NCBI GenBank assembly: GCA_945898055.1
Contig: CAMDGV010000005.1
Coordinates: forward strand, 1 to 64,000
Origin: Akkermansia muciniphila
Lineage (GTDB): Bacteria > Verrucomicrobiota > Verrucomicrobiia > Limisphaerales > UBA9464
Length of the DNA stretch: 64,000 nt
Direction: 5' to 3'
Shown here: positions 2,417-63,398 of the stretch, piece by piece
How positions within the stretch are numbered: the stretch's first letter is position 1
Layout: each line of letters opens with the position of its first letter
Program-made: the position numbers and the translations under genes
The notes under the pieces: model-generated
Seen by the model: only the letters and a program-made list of their open reading frames with translations
The model's database searches: none
Told to the model about the DNA's origin: nothing

Positions 2417-4870
2417 ATGCCTTCCTGTCGTCGCTTTAGTTCGTCATTCGCGGCGGCGCTTTTCTTTGCCGCCAGCCTTGGTTTGGCGGTGGCCGTTCGT
2501 GCCGCAGAGCCGTTTGAAGCCTTCCTTGAGAAACATTGTCTTCGCTGCCATGGCCCGGAGAAGGAGAAGGGTGACTTGAGGATCGACCGGCTCTCTCTCG
2601 ATTTTAAAGTGGGGGCAGACACGCACCACTGGGCGGAGATGATGGAGCAGGTCAATTCGGGCGAGATGCCGCCGAAGAAGGAGAAAAGGCCGACGCAGGA
2701 GGAGATCGCGGCGTTTGTGACGAGCCTTGATTCGCGAATCAAGGAGGGAAGTGCGGCGCGGATGGCGGCGAGGCCGGCGGTGGCGCATTATCGGCTGAGC
2801 CGGAAGGAGTATCAAAACACGGTCTATGACCTACTCGGAGTCCGTTACGATCCGGCGAAGCCGGGCGAACTGAACGAAGACACGCTGTGGCACGGGTTTG
2901 AACGCATCGGATCGGAGCTCTCGCTTTCGCCATCGCATGTCGACCGCTATTACCGCGCGGCGGAACTTGTGCTCGATCGCGCCTTCCCCACTGCGTCTGG
3001 TGAGGCTCGCAAAGTCCTCAAAAACGCCAAGGAACTACGGTACGGTGGTGGAAAGGAACAGCAGGCGGTGTTGGAGCGTTTCGGCATCAAGCGGCCGCTG
3101 CGTTACCTCCTCTTTCCCGGCCAGGTCCAGACCGCACTTTCGCCGAACTGGTTCGGCAAGACCGGCCCGGAGCACAGTGGTCTCTACAAAGTTCGCATTC
3201 AGGCCAGCGGCATCCGCCCGCCCCGAGGCCAACCGGCCCACTTAAGTATCGGCCACCGGACCGGAGAGGAGACGGTGGCCGGCCTCATCGAGTTTGACCT
3301 AACCGCACCGGAGGACAGTCCGCAGATTTATGAGTTCGAGTTGTTTCTCGAGATGCCTGCGACGCTGGATTTTTGCGTAGTAGCGACGGATGTGGTCGAC
3401 CGGCGACAAGGCGCGGCCTTCCGCAATGCACTGACCAGCCAAGGCTATATGTTCACGCATAGTAGCGAGACCCTGCTCCTGAACGCCACCGCACCGCAGA
3501 TGTTCGATGACAAGGGCAACGGCCTTTTCTCCACAGTGCTGCTCGATTGGATCGAATGGGAAGGGCCGCTGGTGTCTGAGGAGGAAAAGTCGCGGCGAGC
3601 CGGATTGGTACCGCCAAATGACGCGACGCCCGAGGTGGTCGCGGAGCATCTGCAACGTTTCGCCGAACGCGCTTGGCGCCGTCGGGTGAAGAATGATGAG
3701 TTGATGGAATATCTTAAGTCCTACCGTGCCGAGCGCGAGGCGGGTGAAAAGACCATCGACGCCTACCGTGTCGCCATGCACGGCGTGATGACCTCCAGAC
3801 ATTTCATCTACCTCGTCGAGGGGGAGCCGAAGGCCCGTGAACGTGTCACTGACTCGGAACTCGCCTCCCGGCTCTCGTATTTCCTCTGGAGTTCGATGCC
3901 CGACGCCGGTCTCGTCGTCACGGCCCAAGGCGGCAAGCTCAACGACGAAGGCCTGAGGAAGGAAGTGGACCGGATGCTGATGGACCGTAAAGTTGGCAGC
4001 TTCATCGACGATTTTGCGCGGCAGTGGCTGCAGCTGCACCGCCTCGGCATGTTCCCGCCGGACAAGAGGCTCTACCCGAACTACGACGCGTGGCTTGAGA
4101 CGAGCATGCGTGCCGAGCCCATCGAGTACTTCCGTGAGATGTTTGCGAAGAACATGGCCATCGACGGCTTTATCGATTCCGACTGGACCATGGCCAATAC
4201 CCGGCTCGCCGATTTTTATGAATTTCCGGAGATGAAGGCCGGCGGCTTCCAACGCGTTTCCCTTAAGCCCGAGGATCATCGCGGCGGTCTGCTGACAATG
4301 GGTGCCGTGCTCGGGCTGACCTCAGACGGCACGCGCCACCGCCCAGTTCATCGCGGAGTCTGGCTCAGCCAGGTGCTCCTTGGTAAGACGCCGCCTCCGC
4401 CTCCGGCGAATGTGCCGGCCATCGAACCCAATCCGCCGAAAAGCCCCAAGGCAACGCTTCGTGACAAACTGGAGGCGCACCGCAATGACGCGAACTGTGC
4501 GGCCTGCCATGCCAAGATCGACCCGATGGGACTCGCCTGGGACAACTACGACGCCATCGGCCGCTGGCGAACGCGGGAGAAGATCGCGGCGGGTGTCGGC
4601 GAGGATCCATTGATCAATCCCGCTGGCACGATGCCCGATGGGCGTCCGTTCAAGGATGCTGGTGATTTCAAACGACTGCTGCTCGACGACCGCGACAAGT
4701 ACGCGCGCGCCTTCATCGAGCATCTCTGCATCTACGGCCTTCGTCGCCCGCTCGCCTTTGACGACCAGTCCGACCTTACGTCCATCCAAACAGAAGCGAA
4801 GAAAAGCCAATATCGACTCAAGGACATCGTCCGCGCCGTGGCTTTGTCCGACCTGATGCGCAAACGATAA
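2417..4870 (+). CDS. Secreted DUF1592-family cytochrome c-like protein (PSCyt1/DUF1587/DUF1595/DUF1592/DUF1588/DUF1585)
   Basis: This is a large extracytoplasmic haem protein of the planctomycete/verrucomicrobial DUF1592 type. I take the ATG at 2417 (817 residues), because it starts a good signal peptide (arginines at 5-6, hydrophobic stretch to about residue 28, ARAA-like cleavage); an upstream TTG at 2306 would bury that leader. A CLRCH haem motif lies at residues 41-45 and a second motif, [10 protein letters not shown], at about 694, in the place expected for DUF1588. Blocks between them ([15 protein letters not shown], then [13 protein letters not shown], then [23 protein letters not shown]) follow the usual domain order. 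The substrate is unknown; electron transfer during polymer breakdown is a common guess. It leads an operon with the DUF1552 gene 23 bases downstream. Confidence 0.85.
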
Positions 4871-53656: not shown

Positions 53657-54229
53657 TTATAACCGCTTGAGTCGGATACGTCGATACTCCATCTGACCGT
53701 GATCAGCCTCAAGCCCAATTGGGCCGGTCGCCGGAAGTTTGAGGGCCTCTTGCAGTATCTCCCCATTACAGGTGCAATGGGCTACTCCGTCCCTTACGAT
53801 AACTTCAATCGAATTCCAATCCTGAGCCCGGTACTTCTTCAGATCTTTGTAGGGGCCAGCAACCAGATAATCGCGGCACTGCAACTGGGGTTCACGAATG
53901 AAAATACCGCTGTCAGCATTGACCGCTGCACGGAACTCAAGTCTGAGGATGAAGTTCCCGGAAAAGCTCTCAAGGGTCCACAATTGTCGAAGATGAGGGC
54001 CCTTTGCTTTGTCGAAATCATTGACGACGAGAGTTCCGTTAAGTGCGGTGTAGCGTCCGTCGCTCGCTTCCTTTTTACCGTTCAAGGGAGCCTCTGTCTT
54101 ATACCTCCAACCGGTGAGATCCTTACCGTTGAACAGGCTAATGAAGCCTCGGTCGGTTGTTGAGGAAACGCACCCTGAGCAGAGCAGCAGGAGAGCAATG
54201 AGATATCGAGGGGTAAGAGTGCAGCGCAT
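53657..54229 (-). CDS. DUF1080 lipoprotein (3-keto-disaccharide hydrolase-like)
   Basis: The 190-residue product has a lipoprotein signal: a short hydrophobic run, LIALLLLCSGC, with lipobox Cys18. The mature part is a concanavalin-like DUF1080 domain: FISLFNGKDLTGWRYK, LNGTLVVNDFDKAKGPHLRQLWT, FILRLEFRAAVNADSGIFIREP, and WNSIEVIVRDGVAHCTCNGEIL. DUF1080 proteins of this phylum have been linked to 3-keto-disaccharide hydrolysis and binding of sugar polymers. It should be anchored in a membrane facing the periplasm. Confidence 0.9.
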   Translation of the reverse strand: MRCTLTPRYLIALLLLCSGCVSSTTDRGFISLFNGKDLTGWRYKTEAPLNGKKEASDGRYTALNGTLVVNDFDKAKGPHLRQLWTLESFSGNFILRLEFRAAVNADSGIFIREPQLQCRDYLVAGPYKDLKKYRAQDWNSIEVIVRDGVAHCTCNGEILQEALKLPATGPIGLEADHGQMEYRRIRLKRL

Positions 54230-54971: not shown

Positions 54972-57900
54972 GTGAAAACTATGTCCTTCCCGATTCGAGC
55001 CGAAATAAATAAACCTCCACAGATGCCTCCCAAAATTACTCGCCTAAACCCTAGCCTTAAGCAGCAGCCAATAAGTCGAATTTGCTCCTTATTTGGGCTA
55101 ATCTTAGCGGCCAACTGTGCTGCGCTGCCCAACCTTTCGGCAGCCGCTCCCACCTTGTCGGTCGCCCAAAAAACCTTATTAGAGGACGGCTCTGTCACCT
55201 ACGCTGCTCTTGATTTTACTTTCACCGCTGGGAACGCAGGGGCGTTTGAATCCGTCAAAGTCATCGGGAATCCAACGAAAGGTGACCTCAGTCTGTCGGG
55301 TTCCGCAGTGACCAATAATCAGGTCATTTCTTCTGCAAACCTCGCGAACCTGAAATATACACCTCGGGCGAATGAAAATGGAGCTGCCTATGTCGACTTG
55401 GTCGCCATTGAAGTAGGGAATAGTGTCGCTAGCTCTGTGTTCAGGGCTAATTTCGACATTACACCGGTGAATGATGTTCCGAGTGTCAGTCTCACTGCTG
55501 TCACCAACCTCGCCGGTGTTACTTGGGGCGCCACGGCCGCCTCCCAAGAACTTTGGCAGTCGCTTGCCTCTTCTTCCAACGGTCAGAAATTGGTTGGGGT
55601 CGTGGACGGCGGCCGTATTTACACATCGTCTGACGCCGGGATCAATTGGGTAGCACGCGATTCAAACCGAAACTGGCAGGATGTTGCTTCCTCCGCCGAC
55701 GGAGCCAAACTGGTCGCGGTCGTTCAAGGTGGGCTGGTTTACACCTCCGCAGACTCTGGAGCTACTTGGATCAACCGGGACGCTGCGGGTTCCCGCGCGT
55801 GGTCATCAGTGGCCTCCTCGGCCGATGGATCTGCGATTGTAGCGACGGTAAGCGCTGGTAAAATCTACTCCTCCTCCGACAGTGGCGCCACTTGGATCTC
55901 TCGCGCCACAGACTTAAATTGGAGCGATATTGCCTCATCAAACGATGGGACTAACCTAGTTGCTTCAGTCAATGGTGGTAATGGTGGTTTCATTTATACT
56001 TCAACCGACCGTGGGACGAATTGGACTCAACGTGCTTCTGAGAAGCTCTGGACCGCAGTGTCCTCCTCAGCCAATGGTTCAAAGCTAGTTGCGGCAGTAC
56101 AAAACGGCGCAATCAGCACCTCCTCCGACGGCGGAGTCAACTGGGTTGTGCAGGCGAGTGCAGGAGATCAGGACTGGAGTTCCCTTGCTTCTTCAGCGGA
56201 TGGCGCTGAACTTATTGGGAGCGTCTTCGGTGGTAAACTCTACACCTCCCTAGACAGTGGTGTAACTTGGACCGCGCGTGCCGACGCTCGTAATTGGTCT
56301 GCCGTCGCCGCTTCCGCGGATGGTGGCGCCTTGGTAGCTAGCGTCTATGGTGGCTTGCTTTATAGGTCTTCCGATGAGGTTGTGCCCTCCTCTGTTACTT
56401 TTGCTGAAGATAGTGGTCAGTTTACGAAGGCGAATTTCTTCCTGGCCTCTTCGGCGGGGCCCGCAAACGAAATTGACCAAACTCTCAGTTTTGGTCTGAG
56501 CGGCTTCAATGCGGGTTCCTTCTTGGTGGCCCCGGCAATCAGTTCTGCTGGAACCTTAACCTTCACTCCTGCAACCAACTTCATCGGAACTGAAATCGTC
56601 ACCGTCAAAGTTAGTGACAATGGTGGTACTGCCAATACCGGGGTGGACACTGCAGACCCGACTGGGATGAAACAATTCAAGATCGTCATTACCAATACGG
56701 ACGATGCCCCAGTCTTGGCCGCTTTCAGGATCAATGGCACAGAAGATGTCGTCGTAGCATTTACCTCGTCTACCCTCACGACTAACTACACGACAATTGA
56801 CACGGTTGCTCTTAAACCTGCGGTGAGCTACACGATTCAGACCTTACCTGCTCGGGGAGCGCTTTTCATCTCTGGTGCACCGATAGTTGCATCGCAGGTT
56901 ATTACTGCCGCCAATGTCACAAATCTGACCTACGTGCCGCAGTTAAACACGAGCGGAACAAATACCTTTCAAGTCAGCGCTTCCGACGGTGTTTTGTCCT
57001 CCACGAATGCAGTCGTGACGTTGGTCTTCAGTCCAGTCAACAACCCTCCAGTGGCTGTTGCTCAAGTTCTCAACGCGACAGAGGATGTTGCGCTTCCGAT
57101 AGTGTTGTCGGGAACCGACGCAGACCGTGATGATCTGACGATTACAGTCGTGGACCTACCGACCAACGGTACCTTATCTGGAACTTACGTCTATACCCCG
57201 AAAGCTAACTATTCGGGTCCAGACCGCTTCACTTTTAAGGTCAAAGACGCTGCGCTCTTCTCCGTCTTGGAGACCGTTAGTATCACAGTGCTCCCTGTTA
57301 ATGACGGGCCAGAATTAGGATCAGTGGTCGTGGCAGGTACTGAGGAAACCACTCTATCCTTCACCACGGCGATGTTTTCCTCGAGATACACCGATATTGA
57401 AGGTGATCCATTCACCAGTATTACCGTCAAAACCCTCCCAGCGACCGGTACCCTCAAGTTGGGCGAGGCAGTCGTGACTCCGTCGCAGGTGATCGCAGTC
57501 GCACAATTGTCTGCTTTGACCTACACGCCGGCCACTAACGAGTTCGGATCCAAGAGCTTCACGGTTGTTGCCTCGGACGGTGTCACTCTGTCGGCTCCGA
57601 CTACCGTGACCGTGGTTCTGGCCAATACCCCTGACGCCCCAGTTTTAGGTTCTTTCTCAAAGAGCGAGAATGAGGATGTTGTCATAACCTTTCTTCCGGC
57701 CGATTTCACATCGAAGTACACCGACTTAGATGCGGGTGGAGCGACTCTTACAGCAATCAAGATACTAACTTTACCGACGGTCGGTGTGCTCAAAAACACA
57801 ACTACAAATGCGGTGATCGATTTGGTATTGACGACTGCCCAGATTACCAATCTTTCCTACACCCGCGGGGCCGACTTATTCGGTGATGATTCATTTACTG

Positions 57901-60900
57901 TAAGTGGCTCAGATGGGACTCGCACGAGTCTGCCGGCCGTGGTGACCTTGACCGTCGTTCCGGTGAATGATGCACCCAGCGCTACGATTCCGGCGTTGAC
58001 CCAGAAGTATGTTGGACAAAATTTAACCGGTATCACGCCGGTCTTGTTGGACTCTGTTAACGCTTGGAAGTCAGTAGCGTCTTCTTCTGATGCTTCGATC
58101 CTCGCCGCAGTGAACGACAACGATCTAATCTACGTCTCGACCAACTCGGGTACGAATTGGACACCGCGTGCAAGTACCCGTCAGTGGAACAGCGTTGCGA
58201 TCTCGACCAACGGTCAGTTGGGAGCAGCTACGGTTAAGAATGGTAAAATCTACGTGTCGGGTGACTCAGGAACGAATTGGATTGCACGTGATTCCGATCG
58301 GGCTTGGCGCTCGATCGCCATCTCAAGTACGACTAATGGCACCATTATGGCTGCGGTCGTTAATAATGGTCAGATCTATGTCTCCTTAGATTCTGGTACA
58401 AACTGGACGGCTCGGGCGACAAGTCAGCTTTGGAACTCCGTGGCTGTGTCTGCCGATGGAAGTCGGTTGTTGGCCTCAGTGTTCGGCGGTTCACTCTATA
58501 CTTCATCTGATAAGGGTACAAACTGGACGGCAGTGGCTACTCCGATGTTCTGGAGTTCTGTGGCACTGAATACTAATGGCTCCAAGATGGTTGCAACTGA
58601 GTCTGGTCGGCAGATTTGGACTTCCGCTGACTCTGGAGCCACTTGGACTGCCAGTGCGAATGCTGGAAATCGGAACTGGTCGTCCGTGGCAATGTCCGCT
58701 GATGGCAGTCGAATCTTGGCGGCGGTAAATGGCGGTAAGCTTTACCTCTCAATCAATGGCGGGATCGCCTGGCTCGAGCAAAATGAAAACGTAAGTTGGA
58801 ATTCTGTGGCCGGCTCGTCGGACCTCAAGAAAGTTGTCGCCTCGGCCACCGAAGGTATCGCCACCTCCTCTGACTTCACTATTCCTTTGGAGATTGCCTT
58901 GGCTGAAGACAGTGGAACCTACACCTCTGATAACTTTGCAACCAGTCCTTCAACCGGACCGGCCAACGAAGCGTCACAGACTATTAGCTACTCGGTAACC
59001 GTGACCAATTTGTCTCTCCTTGGTGGAACAAACTTATTTGAAGGTACGCCAACGATTGACCCCAGTGGTAAGCTAAGCTTCAAGACAGCGACGAATGGGT
59101 TTGGGTCGGCAAACCTGATCGTGACTGTCAAAGACAACGGCGGGGTGACCAACACCTTGAACACGCTATTAGGTAAGGACTCGAAAGAAGTGGGCATCTT
59201 CAAGGTTAGCGTGAGTGAGGTCAATGATACCCCGACTGCAATCGCTCAAGCTGTTGTTCTGACTGAGGACGCCACTAAGGCGATTACTCTGACTGGGACC
59301 GATCCAGAGAATGCTGCCTTAGCCTTTAGGATTGTTTCCCTTCCTACCAAAGGCACTGTGAGCGGTACTAACTCCGCGTCCCTTAATTATATCCCCAACG
59401 CAAACGCGGTCGGCGCTGATAGCTTTAACTTCTATGTGGCTGACGGTACCTCTACATCGGCAGTCGCTACAGTTTCACTCACCATCACCAACGTGAATGA
59501 TCTTCCCGTGGCAACACCCCAACTCGTCAGTGCCGAAGAGGATATCCCCAGGACGATCACCTTGACTGGCACGGACGTTGACGGGGACACTCTGACCTAC
59601 ACCGTTCTGACCCAACCAACCAAAGGTGTCTTAACCGGAACTGGGTCGGCCCGCGTGTATACGCCGAATAAGGATATCTTTGGTTCGGATAGCTTCACTT
59701 TTAAGGTGAACGATGGCACTGTTGATTCCGCTGTCATCGCAACGATATCGATCAATATCGCCGATCTCAATGACCCACCAACTGCTCTAAGTCAGACGAA
59801 TAACCTTATCGAGGGTGGCTTTAAAAACGTGGTTCTGACCGGAACTAGTCCTGAAGCGGGCCGAACTCTTGTCTACACGGTACTCACGCAACCGACAAAA
59901 GGTGTGCTCACTGGAGCGCTGACTGGGACGACTGTTTCCTTAGGTTACACCCCGTCGGCAAAGCAATCTGGGACCGATTCATTCACCTTTAAAGTGAACG
60001 ATGGCTTCGACAACTCTGGGGTTGGGACCGTCACTCTCAATATCACCAACATCAATGATATTCCGACCTTCGATATACCGGTCACCAAGAAGTCGGGTGG
60101 TGAGAATCCAGTCTGGGCAAAACTTCCCAATGCCAGTGCGGCGTGGAATGGTATTTCGGTCTCCATTAACGGCAGCGTGGTCGCTGTTAGTTCATCCACC
60201 TCGCTCCTTGTTTCGACAGATAGCGGTAATACCTCCACCAATGCGCTGTTGCCAGGAAGTGGTGCTCACAAAGCCGTGGCAGTCTCAGCCGACGGTTCAA
60301 AGATCCTGGCCGCTCGCGGCAATCAGTTGTACGCCTATGCAAGTGGCGTTTGGAACTCGCCAGTAACGACGACGTCCAATACTCCTCCCTCAGCGTCTTG
60401 GATGTCAGTTGCCTCGTCAGCAGATGGAGTAAAGTTGGCGGCGGTGGGCTCCAACGCGAAGCCTTATGTGTCAACCAACTCGGGCAGTACTTGGACTGCA
60501 GTTGGTACAGCTCAAGATTGGCAGGCGATAGCCTCCTCATCGGACGGTAGCAAACTTGCGGCCGCTGCCTACAATGGAGCGATCTACACCACAGTGGACG
60601 GTGGAACGAATTGGACGACCCGCACGGTGGTCGGTAGTGCTAATCGGTACTGGTCCTCGATCGCCTCCTCCGCCGACGGTCTAAAATTGGTTGCCACAGA
60701 ACTTAACGACCAGATCTTCACCTCAGTCGATGGCGGTAGTACGTGGACTGCTCGTGACTCAAAGCGCGCTTGGTCCTCAGTTTCATCATCGAGTGATGGT
60801 AAAAACCTGCTGGCTTCTGTTTACGGTGGTAAACTTTACTACTCGGAGAACTCCGGTTTGACTTGGGCTGCCAAGGATGAGGATCGGGTCTGGGGTGCAG

Positions 60901-63398
60901 TTGGGATCGCTGGCGATAGCGGTAACGCTCTTGCCGCCGTTATTGACGGGGCCTTGTACCGCGCACTTGGCTACGATACGGAATCAACACTCACCGTATT
61001 GGAAGACGAAGTGACCAACTACGCTGGTTTTGCCACCAACATCTCTGCCGGCCCCCCAAGTGAGTCAAAGCAAGTGCTGACTTTTGTTCTCACCAGTAGC
61101 AACCCGAGCCTCTTCTTGGCTGGCCCATCAATCAGTGCTTCTGGCACCCTCTCCTTCACCCCGGCTGCGAACGTAAGCGGCACGGCATCGGTTGAAATCT
61201 ACCTTCAAGATGACGGTGGCACCGCCTTTGGTGGGGTTGACCGCTCGGTAAAGAAGAAGTTCAACCTCGTCGTCACGGCAGTGAATGACGCGCCGGTGGC
61301 TAACTCCCAGACCATCACAACTTCAGAAGATGCGGCTAAGGTTATCACCTTGACTGGTACTGATGTTGAGAGTTCACCGTTGATCTACACGATTGTGCGA
61401 TCACCGGCTAAGGGCACCTTGAGCGGGACTGGTGCTAACCAAGTCTACACCCCGTTCGCAAACGCAAACGGCGCTGATAACTTCACCTTTAAGGTGAGCG
61501 ACGGGGAACTCGATTCAACCGCTTCCTCAGTCACAGTGGTGATTTCTGCGGTAGACGATCAACCGATTGTCTCCAATCAGTCGTTGCTGACCGATGAGGA
61601 TAGTGCTCTGCCCATTACTCTAGCCGGCAGTGACGTCGATGGCGACACATTGACCTACACGGTGCTGACGCTCCCCAATCTGGGTGCGCTGTCCGGGACT
61701 GCACCCAATTTGGTGTACTTGCCGAACCAGAATATCTCGGGCACCGACAGTTTCACTTACAAAGTGAACGGCGCAGGGGTCGACTCAATCGTTGCGACGG
61801 TCTCAATCACTATCGCTGCAGTTAATGACGCTCCGCTAGCAAACGCCTTGTTTGTTGAAACGGTGGAAGACACGGCTAAGGAGATCACACTTGCAGGACT
61901 CGACTTGGATGGATCGACACTGACCTACACGTTAGTGCGTCCTCCGACCAAGGGCGTCTTGAGTGGCACTGCCCCCGCCCTGACTTACACCCCAAATAGG
62001 GATGCCAATGGTGTTGATAGCTTCACCTACAAGGTAAGTGATGGTTTCCTTGACTCAGCCCTGTCGACGGTGTCCATCACGGTCACTGCAGTAAACGACG
62101 CTCCAGTCGCGAACAGCCTGACTGTTGAGGCGGTGGAAGACACGGCCAGTGCTGTGGTCCTAGCCGGGACTGACGTGGAGGGAGATGCTCTTTCCTACAC
62201 CATCGTGTCTGGTCCTGTGAAGGGAACCTTAACGGGTACCGCACCGGCCTTGGTTTACACTCCGAACTCAGACGTGTCTGGTACGGACAGCTTCACCTAC
62301 ACGGTAAATGATGGTTCCCTTGACTCAGTCTTGTCGACGGTATCAATCACGGTCGCTGGCGTAAACGACGCCCCAGTCGCGAACAGTCTGACCGTTGCGG
62401 CTTTGGAAGACACGGCAAAGGCTGTGGTCCTAGCCGGGACTGACCTAGAGGGAGATGTTCTCTCCTACACAATTGTGGATGGTCCTGTGAGCGGAACCTT
62501 GACGGGTACCGCACCAGACCTTCTCTACACTCCGAACTCAGAGGTGTCTGGTACGGACAGTTTCACCTACAAGGTAAATGATGGCACGGCTGACTCGGCT
62601 GTCGCGACAGTGTCGATCACCGTTGCTGCGGTGAACGATGCGCCGGTGGCAATTCCGTTGACCGTTGATACTACCGAAAACACCTCAGTTGCAATCACGC
62701 TGACCGCGTTCGATGTGGATGGTTCTGAATTGAACTACGTGGTGTCTACCGAGCCGAAGAACGGTGTCTTAACTGGCACCGCTCCGAACCTTGTCTACAC
62801 GCCGAAACCCAGTATATCGGGATCAGACAGTTTCACTTTCACTGTCAATGACGGTACGGATAACTCACAAGAGACGACGGTGGTAATTGAAGTCTCTGGG
62901 ATGAATGACGCTCCTGAGGCCTTCAATGTCTCGGTGAAAACCGAAGAAGGTTCCCGTACAGAATTCCGGCTGGTGGGATCGGACCCTGAGGGTTCTCAAT
63001 TATCCTACACCGTGCTGACAGAGCCGACCAAGGGTACCCTTTCTGGTACTGCACCCGACTTAATTTACTCCCCGAACCCAGGAGCATCCGGAGTGGATAC
63101 AATCACCTACAGTGTCAATGACGGTGCTTTGGATTCCGCGATTGCAACGGTAACAGTTGAGATCGCTTCCAACGAACCGCCAACGATCACATTCAATTCG
63201 AGCAATGGGGTTAACCTGCTGCTGGAAGTCCGTGCACCGATCGGTGTGGAGGTAACGGTTGAGGCTTCAACAGACCTAGGGGTCTGGAGTGCAACCGAAT
63301 CCAAGGCCATCGGGCAGGGCATGGACGTGGCTGTTCCTCTTACATTAGAGATCGATCCGAATGTCTCGGTTCGGTTCTGGCGCCTAAAAGGACTGTAA
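54972..63398 (+). CDS. Giant secreted protein with three Asp-box propellers and tandem cadherin-like domains
   Basis: The 2808-residue product probably starts at GTG 54972; ATG 54981 or 55023 would give a shorter, cleaner leader (SRICSLFGLILAANCAA). After one cadherin-like domain come three blocks at about 195-468, 1032-1301 and 1725-2002. Each block has seven repeats of about 40 residues with the Asp-box form S/T-x-D-x-G-x-x-W (TSSDAGINW, TSADSGATW), so each should fold as a seven-bladed propeller. Each is followed by a special domain with an EDSG- or LEDE-type start and a GPxxExxQ block, then cadherin-like domains: four at 580-1000, three at 1410-1715, and seven exact 90-residue repeats at 2104-2733 (VNDAPVANSL start, FTYKVNDG end). 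A terminal beta domain ends EASTDLGVW...RFWRLKGL. It may be an adhesin or cell-surface sugar-binding protein. Confidence 0.85.
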   Translation: MKTMSFPIRAEINKPPQMPPKITRLNPSLKQQPISRICSLFGLILAANCAALPNLSAAAPTLSVAQKTLLEDGSVTYAALDFTFTAGNAGAFESVKVIGNPTKGDLSLSGSAVTNNQVISSANLANLKYTPRANENGAAYVDLVAIEVGNSVASSVFRANFDITPVNDVPSVSLTAVTNLAGVTWGATAASQELWQSLASSSNGQKLVGVVDGGRIYTSSDAGINWVARDSNRNWQDVASSADGAKLVAVVQGGLVYTSADSGATWINRDAAGSRAWSSVASSADGSAIVATVSAGKIYSSSDSGATWISRATDLNWSDIASSNDGTNLVASVNGGNGGFIYTSTDRGTNWTQRASEKLWTAVSSSANGSKLVAAVQNGAISTSSDGGVNWVVQASAGDQDWSSLASSADGAELIGSVFGGKLYTSLDSGVTWTARADARNWSAVAASADGGALVASVYGGLLYRSSDEVVPSSVTFAEDSGQFTKANFFLASSAGPANEIDQTLSFGLSGFNAGSFLVAPAISSAGTLTFTPATNFIGTEIVTVKVSDNGGTANTGVDTADPTGMKQFKIVITNTDDAPVLAAFRINGTEDVVVAFTSSTLTTNYTTIDTVALKPAVSYTIQTLPARGALFISGAPIVASQVITAANVTNLTYVPQLNTSGTNTFQVSASDGVLSSTNAVVTLVFSPVNNPPVAVAQVLNATEDVALPIVLSGTDADRDDLTITVVDLPTNGTLSGTYVYTPKANYSGPDRFTFKVKDAALFSVLETVSITVLPVNDGPELGSVVVAGTEETTLSFTTAMFSSRYTDIEGDPFTSITVKTLPATGTLKLGEAVVTPSQVIAVAQLSALTYTPATNEFGSKSFTVVASDGVTLSAPTTVTVVLANTPDAPVLGSFSKSENEDVVITFLPADFTSKYTDLDAGGATLTAIKILTLPTVGVLKNTTTNAVIDLVLTTAQITNLSYTRGADLFGDDSFTVSGSDGTRTSLPAVVTLTVVPVNDAPSATIPALTQKYVGQNLTGITPVLLDSVNAWKSVASSSDASILAAVNDNDLIYVSTNSGTNWTPRASTRQWNSVAISTNGQLGAATVKNGKIYVSGDSGTNWIARDSDRAWRSIAISSTTNGTIMAAVVNNGQIYVSLDSGTNWTARATSQLWNSVAVSADGSRLLASVFGGSLYTSSDKGTNWTAVATPMFWSSVALNTNGSKMVATESGRQIWTSADSGATWTASANAGNRNWSSVAMSADGSRILAAVNGGKLYLSINGGIAWLEQNENVSWNSVAGSSDLKKVVASATEGIATSSDFTIPLEIALAEDSGTYTSDNFATSPSTGPANEASQTISYSVTVTNLSLLGGTNLFEGTPTIDPSGKLSFKTATNGFGSANLIVTVKDNGGVTNTLNTLLGKDSKEVGIFKVSVSEVNDTPTAIAQAVVLTEDATKAITLTGTDPENAALAFRIVSLPTKGTVSGTNSASLNYIPNANAVGADSFNFYVADGTSTSAVATVSLTITNVNDLPVATPQLVSAEEDIPRTITLTGTDVDGDTLTYTVLTQPTKGVLTGTGSARVYTPNKDIFGSDSFTFKVNDGTVDSAVIATISINIADLNDPPTALSQTNNLIEGGFKNVVLTGTSPEAGRTLVYTVLTQPTKGVLTGALTGTTVSLGYTPSAKQSGTDSFTFKVNDGFDNSGVGTVTLNITNINDIPTFDIPVTKKSGGENPVWAKLPNASAAWNGISVSINGSVVAVSSSTSLLVSTDSGNTSTNALLPGSGAHKAVAVSADGSKILAARGNQLYAYASGVWNSPVTTTSNTPPSASWMSVASSADGVKLAAVGSNAKPYVSTNSGSTWTAVGTAQDWQAIASSSDGSKLAAAAYNGAIYTTVDGGTNWTTRTVVGSANRYWSSIASSADGLKLVATELNDQIFTSVDGGSTWTARDSKRAWSSVSSSSDGKNLLASVYGGKLYYSENSGLTWAAKDEDRVWGAVGIAGDSGNALAAVIDGALYRALGYDTESTLTVLEDEVTNYAGFATNISAGPPSESKQVLTFVLTSSNPSLFLAGPSISASGTLSFTPAANVSGTASVEIYLQDDGGTAFGGVDRSVKKKFNLVVTAVNDAPVANSQTITTSEDAAKVITLTGTDVESSPLIYTIVRSPAKGTLSGTGANQVYTPFANANGADNFTFKVSDGELDSTASSVTVVISAVDDQPIVSNQSLLTDEDSALPITLAGSDVDGDTLTYTVLTLPNLGALSGTAPNLVYLPNQNISGTDSFTYKVNGAGVDSIVATVSITIAAVNDAPLANALFVETVEDTAKEITLAGLDLDGSTLTYTLVRPPTKGVLSGTAPALTYTPNRDANGVDSFTYKVSDGFLDSALSTVSITVTAVNDAPVANSLTVEAVEDTASAVVLAGTDVEGDALSYTIVSGPVKGTLTGTAPALVYTPNSDVSGTDSFTYTVNDGSLDSVLSTVSITVAGVNDAPVANSLTVAALEDTAKAVVLAGTDLEGDVLSYTIVDGPVSGTLTGTAPDLLYTPNSEVSGTDSFTYKVNDGTADSAVATVSITVAAVNDAPVAIPLTVDTTENTSVAITLTAFDVDGSELNYVVSTEPKNGVLTGTAPNLVYTPKPSISGSDSFTFTVNDGTDNSQETTVVIEVSGMNDAPEAFNVSVKTEEGSRTEFRLVGSDPEGSQLSYTVLTEPTKGTLSGTAPDLIYSPNPGASGVDTITYSVNDGALDSAIATVTVEIASNEPPTITFNSSNGVNLLLEVRAPIGVEVTVEASTDLGVWSATESKAIGQGMDVAVPLTLEIDPNVSVRFWRLKGL
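62091..62630 (+). repeat. Recent tandem duplication of a 270-base unit inside the giant gene
   Basis: Units 62091-62360 and 62361-62630 are each exactly 270 bases (90 codons) and share most of their bases, including long identical stretches such as the one around gtggtcctagccgggactga. They are much closer to each other than to the neighbouring repeats of the same series, which suggests a recent duplication. Confidence 0.7.

Follow-up and report, generated by a model that had tools for sequence, protein, structure and literature searches.

A 2808-residue protein that carries three blocks of regularly spaced repeats raises the question of what these blocks fold into, how they are built into the chain and what they might serve for. 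The window, by which we mean the whole stretch of 64,000 nucleotides that was analysed, comes from a draft genome of 4.63 Mb in 136 contigs. As the original prediction had stated, positions 54972-63398 of the window hold the gene of a single protein of 2808 residues: the open reading frame on the + strand matches exactly, starts with GTG, is complete and contains no internal stops. Based on the sequence, a Sec signal peptide probably lies at residues about 34-59 and the protein is probably secreted. The features of the gene, in which the cadherin-like domains that flank the predicted propellers are called host domains, are as follows.

54972..63398, + strand: whole gene of the three-propeller protein, GTG start; residues 4 and 18 are in-frame ATG codons and alternative starts
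55071..55148, + strand: putative Sec signal peptide, residues about 34-59, read from the sequence by eye
55455..55502, + strand: host cadherin-like domain 1, N-terminal part, residues 162-177, with VNDVPSVSL
55506..56378, + strand: predicted propeller 1, residues about 179-469; closing strand, then 7 blades starting at residue 195
56394..56717, + strand: host cadherin-like domain 1, C-terminal part, residues about 475-582
57966..58013, + strand: host cadherin-like domain 2, N-terminal part, residues 999-1014
57993..58877, + strand: predicted propeller 2, residues about 1008-1302, with 7 blades starting at residue 1032; from the blade HMM and a model range of up to 17-311
58884..59291, + strand: host cadherin-like domain 2, C-terminal part, residues about 1305-1440
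60045..60092, + strand: host cadherin-like domain 3, N-terminal part, residues 1692-1707
60075..60986, + strand: predicted propeller 3, residues about 1702-2005, with 7 blades starting at residue 1725; from the blade HMM and a model range of about 711-1014
60984..61322, + strand: host cadherin-like domain 3, C-terminal part, residues about 2005-2117
61323..63170, + strand: stalk, a run of tandem-95 / Big_9 cadherin-like domains, from Pfam and NCBIfam matches
63171..63395, + strand: C-terminal domain of 75 residues, 61% identical to that of a single paralogue

The stalk was recognised with both profile libraries. The whole protein scored 517 bits against Big_9 (PF17963; cut-off 23.6) and 567 bits against the tandem-95 repeat NF012211 (cut-off 90), each in 17 stretches of which the searches place only the best, and these matches, together with the predicted folds, agree with the earlier proposal that the propellers lie in a chain of cadherin-like domains. 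Further tandem-95 / Big_9-like stretches, with boundaries drawn by eye, cover about residues 60-165, 583-998 and 1440-1690. Neighbouring tandem-95 units at about residues 2370-2560 are closely alike by eye and were perhaps duplicated recently. The repeat pattern of RTX / type I secreted adhesins, GG.G.D, is absent from the whole protein. We considered the C-terminal 75 residues as a general sorting domain and rejected this, as their only convincing match is the single paralogue; the other two matches in the same genome are weak (E 0.03 and 0.05).

To count the blades, we used a blade HMM that was built from 21 hand-cut units of the window's own blocks and is thus circular; it found 21 units, seven in each of the ranges 195-481, 1032-1314 and 1725-2011, and none elsewhere in the protein. 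The units scored 26.8-65.9 bits, with the lowest scores of propeller 3 in its first, second and last units, while the highest of 473 matches in 200 shuffled copies reached 7.0 bits. A less circular HMM from block 1 alone recovered every unit of blocks 2 and 3 except the first and the last of block 3 (12 of 14). The original count of three blocks of seven units is thereby upheld, but its wording, exactly seven copies of the full motif per block, was too strong. The strict Asp-box, S-x-D-x-G-x-x-W, occurs in 11 copies, all in blade register and distributed 6 + 4 + 1 over blocks 1, 2 and 3; with relaxed forms that end in W, the motif list gives 16 boxes, strict copies included. The seventh unit of every block has no Asp-box. 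In the strand order of the block 1 prediction, the Asp-box hairpin sits between blade strands 3 and 4, and six boxes in the seven blades of block 1 equal the stated maximum of n-1. A fitting fourth strand precedes the first unit, for example GVTWGATAASQELW ahead of block 1, and likewise in many relatives; in 81 of 91 relatives, a Trp stands at most 17 residues ahead of blade 1. In the parts of a 2009 survey that were available (PMC2716378), a 1+3 velcro closure is described for all known Asp-box propellers except one. By sequence and model, the strand ahead of the first unit appears to be placed to close the ring in the way of those propellers.

Seven units also recur beyond this protein. Clusters of at least three blade units numbered 122 in 78 loci: 92 with seven units, nine with 14, two with 21, eight with eight and 11 with other numbers. 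Because many of these were picked by the search itself (76, of which 52 have seven units, eight have eight and nine have 14), we considered selection bias as the source of the seven-blade count. When the 76 search-picked clusters and six others cut by locus ends were left out, 38 of the remaining 40 had exactly seven units, near copies (L095/L108) and the window's own family included, and the other two had three and four detected units; selection bias was rejected on this ground. Blade counts are quantised. Unbroken runs of 14 units occur in L066, L068, L081, L084, L097, L100, L103, L106 and L114, and runs of 21 units in L082 and L089; in sequence, they look as if whole rings had been duplicated head to tail. 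One chain of 4486 residues, at L062 2462-15919 (+), holds eight seven-unit blocks with IPT/TIG-like domains between them by eye.

Structure prediction gave seven blades in all three blocks, as had been proposed, although the model is weaker in blocks 2 and 3. The model of block 1 and its host domain, made from 58 sequences, had a mean pLDDT of 90.1; ten-residue means were 86-98 over model residues 21-300 and only 64-67 in the first 20 residues, the host part ahead of the propeller. In VIA-align, block 1 aligned to seven-bladed propellers; its four best matches had Z 30.0-30.4 and rmsd 2.4-2.6 over 268-279 aligned residues, and three of the four begin at model residue 17 or 21 and end at 305-307, with the closing strand included. 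The joint model of blocks 2 and 3, made from four sequences only, had a mean pLDDT of 66.7 (70-87 in most blades), and each block aligned separately to propellers with Z 27.9-29.2 among the matches shown. By E-value, the top Foldseek match of the block 1 model was Ycf48 (3.0e-13). Since WD40 propellers rank equal to or above Asp-box propellers in these comparisons, the fold argues for the ring and not for the family, and the assignment to the Asp-box family is based on the sequence motif. Considering model and sequence together, we describe the blocks as three closed seven-bladed Asp-box propellers.

The best solved profile relatives are the Asp-box propellers of GH74, Ycf48 and sortilin. PSII_BNR (PF14870) was absent from the 12 Pfam families that match the whole protein at E up to 10. 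PF14870 was matched by 13 of the 58 members of the propeller alignment (best 1.2e-08), which comprises 24 of 25 host-type references, 31 of 65 other references and the three window blocks. Among the Pfam and NCBIfam models seen, none covers the propeller family end to end.

The flanks of each block read as one cadherin-like domain (host A) that is split: NDxP(S/T)(F/V/A), the propeller and, after it, a segment that contains ED and S(A/T)GPxxE. Unsplit copies of this host exist, six in L065, whose chain also holds two split ones, and one in L078, and they have a spacer of about 8-9 residues at the propeller site; in this alignment we ignored the rows L078_230, a wrong-frame fragment, and L065_817, which repeats L065_818. 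Sequence and model thus support that each propeller is nested in a cadherin-like domain at one fixed loop rather than strung between stalk domains. A second host, B, lies towards the C-terminus of other proteins and reads GGWKIAQNAGQSI, propeller, GTAGYxxGxQYDAIELQYIG. Brevifollis gellanilyticus NBRC 108608, for example, has a single propeller in this host (L083 7082-10981). The host B alignment was typed from the joined flanks of six of nine loci, and its split matches are there by construction; the control for insertion is therefore given by full-length unsplit copies, which were found in four places, two of them read. In those two, L144 and L145, a split copy is followed further on in the same chain by an unsplit one. 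A text pattern for the unsplit copy returned no line from L143 or L146. Unsplit copies of host C were not found with one text pattern, and the same kind of pattern had first missed those of B too. Host D, with IPT/TIG neighbours, looks from its sequence like a linker rather than an insertion. Since host copies occur both split and unsplit, we regard the propeller as a module inside other domains, an arrangement that its adjacent ends permit.

By record labels, host A is confined to Verrucomicrobiota and records called Planctomycetota, and host B occurs in six phyla, Pseudomonadota, Acidobacteriota, Verrucomicrobiota, Thermodesulfobacteriota, Myxococcota and Hydrogenedentota; the labels of metagenome-assembled genomes are those of their depositors, and some seem doubtful. 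Text patterns assigned the hosts of 91 propellers as A 24, B 19, C 7, D 4, doubtful 13 and none 24 (54 of 91 firm). For the tree of 95 propellers, doubtful and unlabelled loci were assigned by eye and four propellers of the own genome were added as host A, giving A 35, B 25, C 7, D 11 and other 17. These labels need 25 changes on the quick tree, on which the direction of insertion is unrooted, against a mean of 51 when shuffled, and they are therefore clustered; hosts A, C and D may have a single origin. The permutation is not uniform: the last unit of L071 has its own Asp-box, and by eye those of L091 and L115 do too. Tentatively, and a shade on the doubtful side, we suggest a mobile plug-in binding ring: one seven-bladed Asp-box family would have entered a single fixed loop in each of at least two different extracellular domains, of which one is found in Verrucomicrobia and another in six phyla, usually with the circular permutation unchanged. 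Two diversified positions in every blade, 14 in a whole ring, would set its specificity, making it a ring-shaped counterpart of other repeat binders.

The original prediction had called the three-propeller architecture unfamiliar. It is not a singleton: three seven-unit blocks in one chain also occur in assembly L041 and, among the 18 other genomes of the genus, in G003, G008, G014 and G018. In these five relatives the spacing is nearly equal, with block starts in the open frame at residues 192-209, 1021-1043 and 1711-1779. Other chains carry two to eight seven-unit blocks, and single blocks are found in G005, G009, G010 and G016, partly on contig ends. One scan returned 306 relatives of the propeller. 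Matches at 1e-20 were obtained in eight of 288 genomes of a phylum sample, with at most eight candidates scored per genome, and at 1e-10 in 36 of 59 relatives, this genome being included in both counts.

The closest relative of the gene is that of G008, placed in the same genus, with dN 0.17 against dS 0.55. Blades of the window are 79% identical to their counterparts in G008 and 58-60% to those in L041, G018 and G014. Across the family, orthologous blades are 64.5% identical (315 pairs), or 62.1% (294 pairs) without the pair G003/G018, which are near copies at this locus, whereas different blades of one block are only 38.2% identical (378 pairs). In the tree, block 2 of the window groups with its counterparts from other genomes (four rows), block 3 with its counterparts including the paralogue from the own genome (five rows) and block 1 with block 1 of L040 (two rows), each with SH-aLRT 100. 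From the far greater likeness of orthologous blades, the tree and dN/dS, we conclude that the three rings are distinct and have been kept distinct. Recent amplification of identical blades was rejected, as orthologous blades are much more alike than blades within one ring.

When 660 units were aligned, blade positions 2 and 18 (of 40) had the highest entropies, 3.79 and 3.76 bits, followed by 3.09 bits. In the strands of the block 1 prediction, these positions fall where strand 1 begins and where strand 2 ends, two sites that adjoin on the top face of a propeller. Placed by strand order in the model, the two most variable positions would therefore be neighbours on the top face. In the three-propeller family, orthologous blades share the residue at position 18 in 47% of cases, against 11% for blades within one propeller; at position 2 the values are 45% and 12%. 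Positions 21, 35 and 38 behave in the same way, as does position 11 on the other face. At positions 2, 18 and 21, orthologues agree in only 41-47% of cases, less than at most scaffold positions, so that the variation there may partly be drift. The interaction hotspots on the top face of WD40 propellers, as far as the available part of the source describes them (PMC3419727), lie at these same two strand ends. It is this comparison, together with the variable top-face positions, that suggests a candidate binding role. The regular spacing, from which sugar or peptide binding had originally been proposed, does not carry that claim, because spacing alone reflects only the repeat fold. By analogy and from sequence patterns, the propellers may nevertheless bind sugar or peptide.

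The surroundings of the gene are variable. The next gene upstream, 53657-54229 (-), matches 3-keto-disaccharide hydrolase; PSCyt/PSD1 and DUF1501 genes lie farther away, and the neighbours of the G008 orthologue were read as acpS and pdxJ. A conserved operon was rejected, as the neighbours differ between the genomes read (window, G008 and G018). The only paralogue found in the genome, of 1841 residues at L009 7825-13350, has at its N-terminus two near-identical blocks that look by eye like beta-helices. It shares with the window protein the tandem-95 repeats, the C-terminal domain and a propeller nested in host A, of which it has only one; this propeller is 61% identical over residues 1672-2182. 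Beside it on contig C3, L009 4551-7643 is an open reading frame of 1030 residues with a TonB-like N-terminus and a TonB-dependent receptor (plug and barrel), preceded by genes for ExbB (3319-4095) and an ExbD-like protein (4092-4541). By eye, its N-terminus has a membrane segment with S-x-x-x-H and then a Lys-Pro-rich stretch; its first 170 residues had no NCBIfam match. From residues 1-3 to 348-350, it was matched in one frame in 15 of the 18 other genomes of the genus, although the matching frames in G008 and G018 have only 455 and 466 residues. If real, it would unite an energy transducer and the outer-membrane receptor that it serves in one chain, a fusion for which we found no paper in the open literature.

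Our preferred explanation, which we consider rather likely, is that an extracellular cadherin-like stalk presents three ligand-binding discs. The protein would be exported, and its long cadherin-like rod would lie at or outside the cell surface, with three predicted seven-bladed Asp-box propellers inserted in three domains of the rod. The closing strand would join the N- and C-terminal ends of each propeller at the rim of the last blade, so that the disc would stand sideways on an unbroken rod. On each presumed top face, the top ends of strands 1 and 2 vary between blades and between propellers, and scaffold residues change much less. Such faces could bind extracellular polysaccharide or protein, and one chain would then offer three different discs for attachment or capture.

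The discs might instead be purely structural, as rigid discs or spacers, or sites at which rods associate with themselves, with no specific foreign ligand. The strong conservation of scaffold residues and the near seven-fold symmetry fit this, as do the Saccharophagus cadherin-like surface proteins that are cited, in the available part of one source, for homophilic and heterophilic association (PMC12153261). We consider it unlikely, given that orthologous blades agree at positions 2 and 18 about four times as often as blades of the same ring do and that a pure spacer by itself leaves the shared face of the two most variable positions unexplained. Still less probable, in our estimate, is a glycoside hydrolase or lyase in which one or more propellers carry a polysaccharide active site, as in GH33 or GH74, and the rod serves as a tether. 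GH74 xyloglucanases are the best solved profile relatives (E 5.9e-16), above Ycf48 and sortilin, and the nearest NCBIfam model, NF045728 (F510_1955 family glycosylhydrolase), matches 57 of the 58 alignment members; its cut-off of 175 bits was not reached by the whole protein (113.1) or by block 1 (56). Also in its favour, all six family members have conserved a Glu at position 17 of blade 5, usually Val or Ala, in their blocks 2 and 3, and four of them have it in block 1 as well, though the window's block 1 is without it; against it, this Glu is present in only 22 of 96 propellers. Across the 96 propellers, no blade or position departed from the pooled letters by more than 0.45 bits, a test that omits positions 26-40 of blade 7, the exit of the chain from the ring; no blade therefore stands out with a constant residue of its own. 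GH33 sialidases are marked by the Arg-Ile-Pro motif, [FY]R[IVL]P, which is absent from the protein, and a sialidase or other hydrolase was rejected on these two grounds. In addition, GH74 propellers are joined directly, according to the survey text available (PMC2716378), whereas stalk domains lie between those of the window protein. We think, from its sequence, that the protein is not an enzyme.

A part in the energised TonB/ExbBD machinery of the envelope, for example as the surface partner of a receptor, appears very improbable. The paralogue adjoins genes for ExbB, ExbD and a TonB-dependent receptor, and ExbD/ExbB genes also lie downstream of the window gene on the other strand, but these are convergent with it and so do not form one operon, and the neighbourhood differs at both orthologous loci read (G008 and G018).

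The fold is known; what is new is the nested arrangement and its recurrence. The 2009 survey, in the parts available, distinguishes four organisational types of Asp-box propellers from known structures (PMC2716378); a whole propeller inserted in another domain lies outside the types given there, and three per rod would be a further type. No description of the architecture was found by title and abstract opening in the open literature, partly among the best 12 of 147 and the best 10 of 22 papers, with subscription papers and preprints outside this range. If positions 2 and 18 set the ligand, it would become possible to tell from sequence alone that many uncharacterised proteins differ in specificity, and the ring would lend itself as a template for the design of symmetric binders.

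Among known systems, Ycf48 is seven-bladed like the blocks described here. Ycf48 / HCF136 (PDB 5oj3, 5ojr, 2xbg) is likewise an Asp-box propeller, is among the best profile matches (8am5, 2.7e-13) and is 15-18% identical to block 1 in Foldseek; it is, however, a single propeller and a photosystem II assembly factor, whereas here three are predicted to be inserted in a Verrucomicrobium stalk protein. Sortilin / Vps10 (PF15902) likewise has Asp-box blades, and the whole protein scores 66.3 bits against a cut-off of 33 in six partial stretches, the best of which spans residues 1174-1284 and profile positions 2-128 of 446. The 10CC domain of sortilin is cysteine-rich; the window protein has only two Cys, at residues 38 and 49, and does not belong to the Sortilin / Vps10 family. 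In the available survey text (PMC2716378), sortilin has ten blades and GH33 sialidase six, in contrast with seven per block here, and the protein is not placed in GH33 either. GH74 xyloglucanases (PDB 2cn3, 5fkq), which were matched by both Foldseek and the profile search, likewise have seven-bladed Asp-box propellers, two per chain, but these follow each other immediately (same source and extent), whereas about 400 and 540 stalk residues separate the propellers of the window protein, in whose sequence we found no conserved site. A cadherin-like/Big_9 rod with a predicted beta-propeller is also seen in BapP, a biofilm adhesin of Pseudoalteromonas tunicata (EAR30327); the available part of its description (PMC12153261) gives one N-terminal five-bladed propeller and possible type I secretion and does not describe an insertion. 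Highly repetitive prokaryotic WD40 proteins, as far as the accessible text goes (PMC5587647), likewise combine conserved blades with highly diverse potential interaction hotspots, although their repeats are of the WD40 type and those of the window protein are Asp-box repeats.
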